64,000 bases of DNA from Muricea muricata (lineage: Eukaryota > Cnidaria > Anthozoa > Malacalcyonacea > Plexauridae). The DNA is taken from positions 9,525,300-9,589,299 of the forward strand of contig OY979730.1 in assembly GCA_963855995.1 (NCBI GenBank). The letters run 5' to 3'. A program made the position numbers and the translations under genes. Under the pieces are notes generated by a model. It made no database searches and was not told the DNA's origin. It saw only the letters and a list, made by a program, of their open reading frames with translations. Shown here one piece after another: positions 6,123 through 39,046 of this stretch (its first letter is position 1; each line of letters starts with the position of its first letter).

Positions 6123-6395
6123 TTGCTTTTCTTGTTTTCAAATATCTGCCTGTATGTAGGGGAAACAGGTAGATCTCTGAAAACAAGAAAGGCTGAACAC
6201 ATCAGAAACGTTAAGAAACATAATAATGGTTCAAACATCGCGAAACATGCATGGGACAATGATCATGTAATTGATTTCGACAGCACGAAAATCATTGACA
6301 CAGGGAATTTCCGTAGTCGCCTAGCACTAGAATCATGACATACAGCCAAAGGGAGGAATGCCGATAACAACTCAAAACCGCTTCCTCGACAATGT
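6123..6395 (+). pseudogene. Penelope-like element GIY-YIG endonuclease remnant
   Basis: The frame reads CLYVGETGRSLKTRKAEHIR, then SNIAKHAWDNDHVIDF, IIDTGN, RSRLALES, a stop at 6336-6338, and a continuation HTAKGRNADNNSKPLP. The YVGETGRSLKTR-x-x-EH block and the later H-x-x-x-x-H-x-IDF and R-x-x-LES blocks match the GIY-YIG endonuclease at the C-terminus of Penelope-like retroelements, the domain that nicks target DNA. The stop falls where the family normally has Trp (LESW), so this copy is dead. It starts about 30 bp after the Harbinger right end. No reverse transcriptase part is visible. Confidence 0.75.
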
Positions 6396-8834: not shown

Positions 8835-9000
8835 ATTTAAAGGGTAATCTGCATGAGTAATGTTAAGCAACACGCTGTATGTTCCGTCTTACCAGCAAAA
8901 CATCTTTTCAGTTTCCGCAGAAGTAGAGAATGTCAACTTAGGGCCCCAGGTAAGTATCTACGCCACTGAGGAAGGGAGTTTGAATAAGAACCAATAACGT

Positions 9001-9845
9001 ACATAACACCAATAACACCATAACGTCTATTACACCAATAACGCCATAACGTCTATAACACCAATAGCTCCATAACGTCTATAACACCAATAACGCCATA
9101 ACGTCTGTAACGCCATTACGTCTATAACACCAATAACGTCCATAACACCAATAACGTCCATAACACCAATAACGTCTATAACACCAATAACGCCATAACG
9201 TCTGTAACACCAATAACGTCAATAACGCCATAACGTCTGTAACACCAATAACGTCCATAACACCAATAACGCCGTAACGCTTATAACACCGATAACGGCC
9301 ATAACACCAATAACGCCATAACGTCTGTAACGCCATAACGCCTATAACACCAATAACGTCTATAACACCAATAACGTCTATAACACCAGTAACGTCTATA
9401 ACACCAATAACGCCATAACGTCTGTAACGCCATAACGCCTATAACACCAATAACCTATATAACACCAATAACGCCATAACGTCTGTAACGCCATAACGTC
9501 TATAACACCAATTACGCCATAACGTCTGTAACACCAATAACGTCTATAACACCAATAACGTCCATAACACCAATAACGCCATAACGTCTGTAACACCAAT
9601 AACGTCCATAACACCAATAACGTCCATAACACCAATAACGTCCATAGCACCAATAACGCCATAACGCCTATAACACCAATAACGTCTATAACACCAATAA
9701 CGTCCATAACACCAATAACGTCTTTAACACCAATAACGCCATAACACCAATAACGCCCATAACACCAATAACACCCATAACACCATTAACGCCCATAACA
9801 CCAATAACGCCACAACGTCTATAACACCAATACGTCTATAACACA
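9001..9845. repeat. minisatellite of 9/18-bp AACACCAAT-AACGTCTAT modules
   Basis: About 845 bp built from 9-bp modules AACACCAAT alternating with AACGTCTAT, AACGTCCAT or CGCCATAACGTCTGT variants, giving mainly 18-bp and longer higher-order units. Because most units are multiples of 3 and lack stops on the minus strand, long repetitive Tyr/Trp/Cys/Val/Leu frames appear there (9079-9336 and 9396-9707). They follow from the repeat and are not genes. Confidence 0.9.
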
Positions 9846-14290: not shown

Positions 14291-14486
14291 AATAAACTTC
14301 GAAAACTTTACTTCTGTTTCGCCAGCCAAAAAGGTCGGAGTTGGTCGGAGAAGATGCAATTAATTATTCAAATTTATGCTGATTATTAAAAAATTATGCT
14401 ATGGGATTTCCGGAAAGTTTACGCCTTTAGCTTTTTTGCATTAATTAGCCCGCACCTCCTGCAACTGGATTTATACAATCTGGAGA

Positions 14487-15003
14487 TAATATCATAGACA
14501 ATCTAAGGAATGGACTGGAAACGCAAGCTAAAGTTTACGCGACATCCGTGATACGCTTTACTTTGGAACCCTGTAACTTCCCTTTAAATACATTTCAGGA
14601 CTTCGTATTTACATATTTTAAACAAGAACAGAAATGTGAATGGAACTATCGACTTTTAAAACTTCCCAGAGAGATAAACGAGGCGGAAAATCACCATTTA
14701 ATGTTTCCGTAAACCTTTTTCAACAACAACAATGGCGACATTTCTGCAGTCAAAAAGAATGCAAACATTCAGCGTTGGGTTTTAGCTTTGTTATATCCAT
14801 AAAGAATTTTAAAAGTCGATAGTTCCATAGAGATTGCCGTTCTTGTTTAAAATATGTAAATAGAAAGTCCTGAAGTATATTTAAAGTGAAGTTACAGGGT
14901 TCCAAAGTATAGCATATCAGGCCGTATCACGGATGTCGCGTCAGCAACATTGATACTTTAGCTTGCGTTTCCAGTCCATTCTGTTGATTGTCTATGGTAA
15001 TAT
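14487..15003. mobile_element. non-autonomous element with long terminal inverted repeats, upstream of MAPRE
   Basis: The left arm includes AATGGACTGGAAACGCAAGC, GCGACATCCGTGATACG and AGGACTTCGTATTTACATA. The right arm repeats these inverted, with TTTCCAGTCCATTCTG near 14985. Arms exceed 150 bp and the inner pair CTATCGACTTTTAAAAC closes the palindrome. The 60-codon frame at 14640-14822 lies wholly inside and looks non-genic. It starts about 200 bp upstream of the MAPRE start codon, so it may sit in the promoter or 5' UTR. Confidence 0.7.
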
Positions 15004-15044: not shown

Positions 15045-15345
15045 AAGTGGATTTTTTTGAAATTTATCACCTCAGTGTTTACCATTCTGCCACGCCCTGT
15101 TGGCGGGCGGAGTAATGAGCTGTGTATGGAGCATTGTTGCCGTTTGCGATTCTAGTCTGTGTTTCTACTTCTGACATATGTGAACAAGTAGATTCTTCAC
15201 CGAAACGCTTGTAACCATTGACATAAATACATCAATGTATTATGTATATATGTCAATTCTTGTAACTGGTTCACTCGTTCACCTCCATCAAATTGATCAA
15301 AGGCAGAACAACACAGTTGAAATTTTTAGGGGAAAAGAACACGAC
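15045..15345. repeat. interspersed repeat family R1, copy 1
   Basis: Shares CCACGCCC, GGCGGGCGGAGTAATGAG, GCATTGTTGCCGTTTGCGAT, CTACTTCTGACATATGTGAA and TCACCTCCATCAAA with 19205-19500 and, more diverged, 22430-22712, in the same orientation. This copy carries an extra segment near 15220-15260. No coding domain is recognisable. Confidence 0.7.
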
Positions 15346-15388
15346 GAATACGACTACAAAGTGGTAACCTTCTCATTTCTTAACCTTA

Positions 15389-15799
15389 GGGACCGTTCAT
15401 TATTTATTAGAAGGAGGGGGATGGGTGATTTTTAGATTGACACAACTTAAAATTTCAGGTCCCCACATTGGTTAGCAACATATTCCAACCCCCCTCCCCC
15501 TCGAAGATTAATTGATAATTTTTGTGAATAGAAAGTACCTTAAATAATAGAAAGTATTTAAAAAAGGCATTTCTCGACGAGGCAGCTACTCCGCTACTCC
15601 AAGCTGTTGTCACAGCTAGAGATGTGAACAAGCACGAAGGCAACAGTGAAGCATTTTGTGGTCAATATAGTCACAATGATTAAGGTCGCCTTCCATATTC
15701 ATGTTTGAACGGATTGACCCCCCCACTTCTTTCTGAAAATTTCAGATCCCCCCATTTTATCACCCATCCCCTCCCCTCCTATATATAATGAACGGTCCC
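15389..15799. mobile_element. MITE with GGGACCGTTCATTAT ends and TTA target duplication
   Basis: The left end is GGGACCGTTCATTATTTATT followed by a G-rich GGAGGGGGATGGGTGA block. The right end is the inverted equivalent (TCACCCATCCCC, AATGAACGGTCCC). TTA flanks both sides (15386-15388 and 15800-15802), consistent with a 3-bp TWA duplication of PIF/Harbinger type. It is 411 bp with no transposase. Confidence 0.75.
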
Positions 15800-15961
15800 T
15801 TATTTCAAGAAATAAACTCGTCCCACTGTCTTATATTCAACATTCATATAATATCACATAGACAAATATCCAGTTTTGAATCATATAAAATAGAGTGCTC
15901 AATACCGAAGTAGAGCGTGTAGAGAAGAAGAAAAGACAAACTTGAATTACTTCATAAATTT

Positions 15962-16021
15962 TATTCACTACAATATTGTTTCGTATGGCAAGCGAGTCTT
16001 GCCACATTCGTCAGGTGAATA
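15962..16021 (-). ncRNA. type I hammerhead ribozyme, Penelope-type
   Basis: Read on the minus strand from 16021 the elements occur in order: stem I 5' strand UAUUCAC, core CUGACGA (fits CUGANGA), stem II with a 9-bp helix (UGUGGCAAG against CUUGCCAUA, one G-U) around loop ACUCG, core GAAA, a self-complementary stem III ACAAUAUUGU, cleavage triplet GUA, then stem I 3' strand GUGAAUA. Stem I pairs perfectly over 7 bp. The only flaw seen is an A-C at the first stem II pair. The near-loopless palindromic stem III suggests the dimer-type hammerheads known from Penelope-like elements. No Penelope coding sequence adjoins it, so it is probably a short 3' relic. Confidence 0.8.
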
Positions 16022-16928
16022 TCGCGTTTGTTGTATAAATTATTGTAACACATATGTAATTATTCCTCCAGCATCTATTGAAGATCAGTTACTGGGGGAA
16101 ACTGAACCGAGTGTAAAAAGAGCGGGAAAATCGTTTCAAAATGGCCCCACTGAATGGCCCACTCAAAGTGGAATGTTTGTTCACTTTTTTGGTAACATTT
16201 TTCGAATTTTTTGTATTTCAATTATTCTGCCCGATATCAAAATGTTATTTTGTACGTATCTACATTACAGGTAATCGTTATATATGTAATTATTTGTTCT
16301 AGTTTACATTTTTACATAGGGCGTAAACTTTTGTATCTTGGATGAGTATTAGCATTCACAGCGAAAGAATACATATAAACGTAGATAAATAAGAAATTTA
16401 CGACCAAAAAATCTACCCACCGTGGACGGTAGCTTTGCAAAATGCGTGTAAAATTTGTCAAAAATGCAAAAATAAAAGTACGCTTTTTAACCGGATGTAA
16501 GTTGCCCAACCTCACTTCCGGTCGTTTCCCCCGTACCGACACGTCGACAGGCCTAGTTTTTCCTTGGTGATACAATCATGTGATTTTAATTGGAATCTTT
16601 GATGTTTTGCACTCAAATGTAAGTTTATTTCACTGCTATTAGTTTGTCGTTTTTAGTAAAGTTTATACTGTATTGTATTATACTGACTTCCTGAGTAGTC
16701 TTAAGCCTATATAGTAGTCTTAAGCCAGTACATCTATATATTAATATATAGATGTACTGAATTGATTGTTTTGATTCGAATGTACCGAACGAAAGACCAC
16801 AAAAGCGACTTTTAGTTTGATAATCAAGTCAACAATAGAACGTTGTGGGGTTTTTTTTAAACAAAGTGTAATTTTCATCCATGATTAGTCGTGGAGTAAC
16901 AATTAAATAATTATATATAAGAGAAGGT

Positions 16929-18219: not shown

Positions 18220-27132
<8,913 letters not shown>

Positions 27133-31122: not shown

Positions 31123-38534
<7,412 letters not shown>

Positions 38535-39046
38535 AGCACAGCTTAAAAGCCAAAATATGATACCAGATATCTAAGTGCCGAATTTTATACAGGCGTAAAG
38601 AATACCGGCTAAATTTTAAGACATCAACACAAACGGAAATTTCTCTCCCTCATCGGTCAATGTCAACTGAGCATTAAGGAGTATACGATATATTATTATA
38701 GACATCAGGAATTCATCTGAATTCGTCACATGTATGACCATCGTGTTTATCGCCGTACACGTGAGTGGGGCACATGTTTAGAGCGCATCAGAGATGACAA
38801 ACCTGCAAATATTACCTGTGCCGTTGAGCTTCCGCTTTTTTGAAACAATTTCCTTGCGAGCGGAAACTGTTTTCGAAAGGAAATTACGTTGTCGAGAAGG
38901 AAAGCAACGAGGATTATGTAATATGTATTTAATGTCTGTAAAATGGGTCTTGTGTAATATGTAAAATCTAAATATTGGCAATGAACTGTAAAAAGTCGCG
39001 ATAAAAATTATTTACTGCGAAGTATTTGAGCCAGACGATTTGTTAA

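Follow-up and report, generated by a model that had tools for sequence, protein, structure and literature searches.

On the minus strand of a 64,000-nucleotide stretch of the genome of the cnidarian Muricea muricata (contig OY979730.1, here called the window) lies a short segment that reads like a self-cleaving RNA, which raises the question of whether it is a hammerhead ribozyme and what kind of element left it there. We read it as a type I hammerhead within a 175-bp copy of a Penelope-like element (PLE), likely the leader of the element reverse-transcribed from an internal start, and give this reading a probability of roughly 0.85. Penelope hammerheads that act as dimers are already known, and the motif in the window is of this known kind. 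Its family supplies many natural copies; their covariation speaks for a dimer, and their ends may be taken to mark where the transcript begins and where priming occurs.

Parts and predicted fold of the motif

Read along the minus strand from 16021 to 15962, the motif consists of stem I, CUGACGA, stem II, GAA, ACAAUAUUGU, A, and GUGAAUA (Table 1). The sequence-only reading had placed all the hammerhead parts in this order, and direct reading and a structural descriptor agree with it. Three helices surround CUGANGA and GAA, the cleavage site has the form NUH, and stem I is the open one, as in a type I hammerhead; cleavage is predicted 3′ of A15969 on the minus strand. Stem I of the window copy is paired at 7 of 7 positions, and the palindrome of stem III is self-complementary at 5 of 5.

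Table 1 Features of the two hammerhead sites in the window
Feature	Positions	Strand	Basis
Type I hammerhead ribozyme motif	15962..16021	minus	sequence, descriptor, model R1
Stem I, 5′ strand, UAUUCAC	16015..16021	minus	script
Catalytic core, CUGACGA	16008..16014	minus	direct reading, script
Stem II and loop, 25 nt: first pair A-C, then 9 pairs	15983..16007	minus	script
Stem III palindrome, ACAAUAUUGU	15970..15979	minus	folding, script, covariation
Stem I, 3′ strand, GUGAAUA	15962..15968	minus	script
Short PLE copy, 175 bp: 11-nt leader, ribozyme, tail	15858..16032	minus	DNA match
PLE "tail"	15858..15919	minus	missing from inverted partner ends of other copies
Second, diverged hammerhead copy	35909..35969	minus	script, R1
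Second PLE fragment	35867..35968	minus	80% identical to the first over 102 columns
Partial inverted hammerhead fragment beside (TA)n	36012..36057	plus	R1, 21.4 bits, E 0.0046

The sole departure from the type I form is the irregular A-C pair that opens stem II. Among 22 distinct copies from the same genome, 19 have G at this position, and A is found in the window copy and in the copies L082 and L086. The A-C pair probably weakens the window copy. The motif had been described as apparently intact; in view of the A-C pair, against the G of most copies, it is not quite so. The A at this position could also be taken as the opening of an ATG, in the manner of the anole PLE, whose frame begins at stem II. 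This start-codon reading was rejected because of the G in those 19 copies and because the first methionine of the long frame of copy L088 lies downstream.

The descriptor, which fixes the core and asks for at least 4, 3, and 3 pairs in stems I, II, and III, respectively, found 1 match on the two strands of the 64-kb window and none in 200 first-order Markov sequences of 64 kb each. A 74-nt stretch has a folding z-score of −2.98, and 0 of 200 shuffles were equally stable. For the monomer, the hammerhead fold is predicted at −15.6 kcal/mol, the optimum being −16.3. As a dimer, which the sequence-only reading had proposed to fold, the predicted double hammerhead with stems I and III formed between the molecules has −42.6 kcal/mol and comes within 0.2 kcal/mol of the optimum (−42.8). 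Stem III would be a hairpin of 3 bp in the monomer and a duplex of 10 bp in the dimer.

A short Penelope-like copy and its relatives in the genome

The own-genome search covered 453 Mb in 74 contigs; it scored 40 out of 641 first-look candidates and returned at least 52 matches at an E value of 10 or less. We compared 40 places (30 taken as loci and 10 added later), the other 12 matches adjoining them. This gives at least 40 genomic copies, including the window copy (L058), that are 91 to 100% alike where compared; they were selected for their resemblance to a query that extends to about q1634 (q being positions in copy L076), and very short copies are under-sampled among them.

The window copy corresponds to q1501 to q1674 and is 96.6% identical to L076. 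Compared with its sister L059, it carries A at the base of stem II, a single change where stem II ends, an inserted T, and two altered positions in the tail. In tblastn with L088 and eight homologues as queries, positions 15887 to 15858 matched residues 22 to 31 of the L088 PLE frame at 10 of 10 residues, with an E value of 0.079 when taken alone but inside the 175-bp DNA match. Thus ten codons of the start of the PLE frame adjoin the motif, where the sequence-only reading had seen no Penelope protein sequence; its proposal of a dispersed relic of Penelope origin is borne out by the 175-bp copy and its relatives across the genome. No clear target-site duplication and no inverted partner were found for the window copy. 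Pfam gave no PLE domain in 10 open frames of the window (nine near the first hammerhead copy and one near the second) and a single weak zinc-finger match (E 0.14); the negative is uninformative because the PLE frame itself likewise goes unrecognized by Pfam.

The window copy might have been retained as a working ribozyme with a role for the host, between the two genes that seem to flank it. The two flanking stretches were read by eye as candidate starts of divergent host genes; the one 66-residue piece scanned shows no Pfam domain. However, the base of stem II is broken and the window copy resembles the other dispersed copies, and we regard such a role as very improbable.

Longer copies in the family carry an open frame upstream of the ribozyme, which reaches 469 residues to the locus edge in L076 and in L082, 458 residues in L071, and 729 residues in L088. 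Copies of the motif next to a Penelope reverse transcriptase (RT), which the sequence-only reading had suggested looking for, were therefore found in these four loci. The frame ends 103 nt before the ribozyme in L076 and L088, and in the stop-to-stop frame of L088 the first methionine is residue 23, downstream of the ribozyme.

The L088 frame has at least 2287 homologues. One of them, P0001 from Solemya velum, is 51% identical to it and aligns through the C-terminus, with gaps of 10 and 7 residues. Pfam recognizes GIY-YIG in P0001 and RVT_1 in P0102 and, in a wider scan, each of the two domains in 1 of 21 homologues, while the L088 frame gave no Pfam domain at an E value of 10 or less. The motif YRDD is invariant in all 21 aligned sequences, that is, L088 and 20 homologues chosen from 120 of the at least 2287. 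Searches of PDB by sequence found nothing. The predicted model of L088 has a pLDDT of 71 and a pTM of 0.56, and its best Foldseek matches are reverse transcriptases, including bacterial DRT and retron enzymes and telomerase, with low TM-scores by query length (0.14 to 0.29 among the matches listed). The longer copies thus carry a telomerase-like RT with YRDD, of which the window copy retains only the ten codons, and, by homology to P0001, a C-terminal GIY-YIG endonuclease. Judged by its sequence and by the predicted structure of its protein, the family is a Penelope-like element.

This bears on a second possible source of such motifs, the non-LTR retrozymes of animals, which are self-contained circular-RNA elements with a canonical type I hammerhead outside any PLE. 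As described in PMC7229834, they occur in cnidarians and, like the copy in the window, they are small retrocopies with a type I hammerhead; the window copy is also small, AT-rich, and dispersed. Unlike them, however, it has no tandem repeats: no tandem array overlaps 15858 to 16032, where repeats of 150 to 450 bp would be expected. Retrozymes are also expected to have loop 1–loop 2 tertiary contacts; stem I here runs through 7 pairs without an internal loop. Moreover, stem III is a bare palindrome, and the joining of an RT/GIY-YIG-like PLE frame to the ribozyme in longer copies already contradicts a retrozyme, which makes this origin improbable.

Relatives of the motif were also sought by pattern in viral and prokaryote contigs, where one search gave 4 matches with at most 3 pairs in stem I and at most 1 pair in stem II; two further searches gave 1 and 52 raw pattern matches. 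A second hammerhead family, with a markedly different sequence, forms inverted pairs in two of the loci, L082 (1816 to 1872 and 2596 to 2652) and L089 (8209 to 8265 and 8989 to 9045). It has a stem III hairpin of 3 bp, matches the descriptor, and scores 41 bits with the covariance model R1 described below.

Rfam and a family covariance model

Against Rfam, the window copy gave no hammerhead at the gathering threshold, nor at an E value of 10 or less over 401 bases. The same search at an E value of 10 or less found no hammerhead in the diverged copy at 35909 to 35969, in which the base of stem II is G-C and stem I has two broken pairs, nor in L088, in which the G-C pair is present and the outer stem I has one T-T. 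The sequence-only reading had not noticed the diverged copy. The sister copy L059, with 7 of 7 counted pairs intact in stem I and 10 of 10 in stem II, matched Hammerhead_1 over its full length with 26.3 bits and an E value of 0.00016, the gathering score being 34. Rfam therefore sees the family as type I weakly and drops copies with one mismatch, since L059 is matched and L088 is not. A sub-threshold Rfam score had been put forward as grounds for abandoning the hammerhead; it says little here because a fully paired sister also stays below the cut-off. As regards the type I assignment, the Rfam search leaves the window copy unmatched and matches L059 below threshold. More broadly, this family is an example in which a negative or sub-threshold Rfam result cannot exclude hammerheads of this kind.

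We therefore also used a covariance model, R1, built from 20 copies of the same genome with both window copies, L058 among them, left out. R1 scores the motif at 83.2 bits (E 2.7e-19) and the diverged copy at 65.7 bits (E 1.1e-14); being specific to the family, it indicates membership and not catalysis. Together with the descriptor and the weak match of L059, it sustains the type I assignment of the sequence-only reading. A chance resemblance might be argued from the missing Rfam match of the window copy. It is already refuted by the absence of descriptor matches in the 200 random windows and by the 83 bits obtained with a model made from other copies, and the type I match of the sister copy and the covariation also speak against it; we consider its probability negligible.

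Covariation and the probable dimer

The covariation of the paired columns was examined in 22 distinct hammerheads, L081 being left out because the 5′ strand of its stem I is cut off. Relatives in the family keep the paired structure of the ribozyme, as seen in their aligned sequences: 92.8% of the cells pair. Changes on both sides occur in 9 of the 22 pairs, in 20 cells, and this count was reached by 0 of 500 shuffles. When the partners were slid by 1 to 3 columns, at most 3 pairs and at most 5 cells showed such changes. A weaker measure, the number of further pair types, gave 16 against 13.4, a value that 35 of 500 shuffles attained. In 12 of the 22 sequences, pair 2-61 of outer stem I is broken.

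Two stem III pairs bear directly on the mode of cleavage. Both partners have changed in 2 of the 22 sequences at columns 48-51 and in 6 at columns 49-50. These pairs cannot form within one short hairpin and are possible only in the dimer; pair 49-50 is broken in three sequences. The covariation is good but not conclusive support for the dimer, because relatedness can inflate such counts. It backs the dimer-type palindromic stem III of the sequence-only reading, and the ribozyme probably cuts as a dimer in which two molecules pair.

Copy ends and the origin of the short copies

The 5′ end in forward orientation is readable in 35 of the 40 loci, the remaining 5 running off the locus, and one of the 35, that of L098, abuts a run of N. 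Within the 18 nt from q1488 to q1505 lie 13 of these 35 ends, 10 of them between q1498 and q1505; in 20,000 uniform draws over the observed span, none reached 13 of 35. L067 and L076 have TATATAA at q1469 to q1475, 29 nt before q1498, and the ribozyme begins at q1512. From these positions we infer an mRNA start about 29 nt after the TATA-like box and about 14 nt before stem I. The window copy lacks the box because it begins at q1501.

A head-to-head inverted partner within 120 nt was found in at least 22 of the 40 loci. Two partners run off the locus; 18 of the other 20 end at q1604 to q1613, and the remaining ends are at q1515 (L063) and q1222 (L092). None of the 20 partners with a readable end has the tail, so that the family shows the PLE arrangement of two head-to-head arms of which just one is tailed, although, with a query extending to about q1634, the matched arms are tailed partly by selection. 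An end motif is readable in 32 of the 40 loci and missing in 8; in 30 of the 32 the tailed end abuts (TA)n, and the window copy belongs to the other two. The 14 partner ends examined meet (TA)n in 8 cases, (CT)n in 5, and neither in 1.

Because the 5′ ends cluster about 29 nt after the TATA-like box, the short copies probably came about by reverse transcription of the mRNA leader. Transcription of the PLE unit would start just before the ribozyme, and two transcripts, or two tandem units in one, would join by way of stem III and cleave one another. Copying by the enzyme would begin inside the first part of the frame and run to the 5′ end of the RNA, which would yield a copy with leader, ribozyme, and tail; priming on both strands of the target would give the head-to-head pairs. 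If this leader model is right, the templates are uncut RNA, because the copies span the cleavage site. Uncut templates would fit what is reported for the Anolis Poseidon element PAc (PMC11167929), in which ribozyme mutants did not affect insertion. In its full form, the model takes the solo copies as direct reverse transcripts of the uncut 5′-most PLE mRNA, from the transcription start to an internal RT start and often from both strands of one target break. We hold this full form tentatively, at slightly less than an even chance.

A different account of the same ends is that a favoured palindromic junction lying just 5′ of the ribozyme serves for priming or joining, and that the ends do not mark the start of an mRNA. 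Equal-armed inverted pairs do meet at short palindromes, as in L075, and self-priming was proposed for Penelope in Adineta, as described in PMC3846280. This account is possible, but we doubt it: L058, L080, and L095, which have no partner according to the script, also start at q1500 to q1501, and the site lies 29 nt after a TATA-like box. If the leader is indeed copied directly, the PLE would be turning the leader of its own mRNA into a ribozyme-only, SINE-like repeat. The ends of this repeat would then preserve both priming sites and the point where transcription starts, and RNA left uncut by the ribozyme would serve as template. Among the titles and openings of abstracts listed in a literature search, none uses PLE copy ends as a record of transcription start.

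Relation to known systems

Minimal PLE hammerheads cleave as dimers according to PMC7761336, which cites Lunse et al. 2017 and Cervera and de la Pena 2014. The motif studied here resembles those described in that review in being of type I with a minimal stem III, in lying in a PLE pseudo-LTR, in occurring as dispersed solo copies, and in the expectation of a dimer. It differs from them, as they are described there, in that stem III is a full 10-nt palindrome with covariation possible only in the dimer and in that the window copy has A-C at the base of stem II. The same review, of 2020, calls the reason why PLEs keep the ribozyme a mystery. Such motifs can be abundant in corals: PMC7229834 reports more than 6000 type I motifs in Acropora millepora, all but 1508 of which resemble the minimal PLE kind.

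The element PAc of Anolis, as reported in PMC11167929, has its ribozyme where the pLTR meets the reading frame, as here, and this ribozyme cut only with protein. The RT of the element also started internally, at two sites; its tail was optional, and both DNA strands were cut and extended. These features would account for the ends seen in the present family. In contrast to PAc, in which the first methionine is at stem II, that of L088 lies downstream of the ribozyme, and the host here is a cnidarian.

For Penelope of Adineta vaga, PMC3846280 describes a tail on one of two inverted pLTRs. The present family shares with it the head-to-head pLTRs, one of them tailed, and a pLTR and tail that reach the start of the frame. 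It differs from the description given there in having at least 40 copies, in ends that lie beside (TA)n or (CT)n, and in copies of about 175 bp that are common in our sample.

Other features of the window

Around the diverged hammerhead copy, positions 35949 to 36057 contain several partial repeats of the first half of the ribozyme together with one second half in inverted orientation; a (TA)n tract adjoins them at 36057 to 36245. Several further repeats were seen elsewhere. An element at 15375 to 15813 has inverted ends of 55 nt that are 82% complementary, with 329 nt between them; its arms contain GGGACCGTTCATTAT, and it is MITE-like. Positions 14486 to 15003 hold another palindromic element, whose arms measure 113, 49, and 19 nt, and the segments at 15080 to 15318 and 19250 to 19480 (minus strand) are similar by eye and may be a further dispersed repeat. 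A degenerate long tandem array with unit lengths of 9 and 44 bases spans 8990 to 9844. At 6153 to 6254, tblastn gives a weak match (39%, E 0.1) to the portion of the PLE frame that holds GIY-YIG, possibly an old relic.

An open frame at 37026 to 38570 encodes RING and TPR domains. Its nearest named relatives, at 41 to 49% identity, are proteins of the octocorals Paramuricea and Dendronephthya, which points to a cnidarian host, perhaps an octocoral; closer matches reach 92%.
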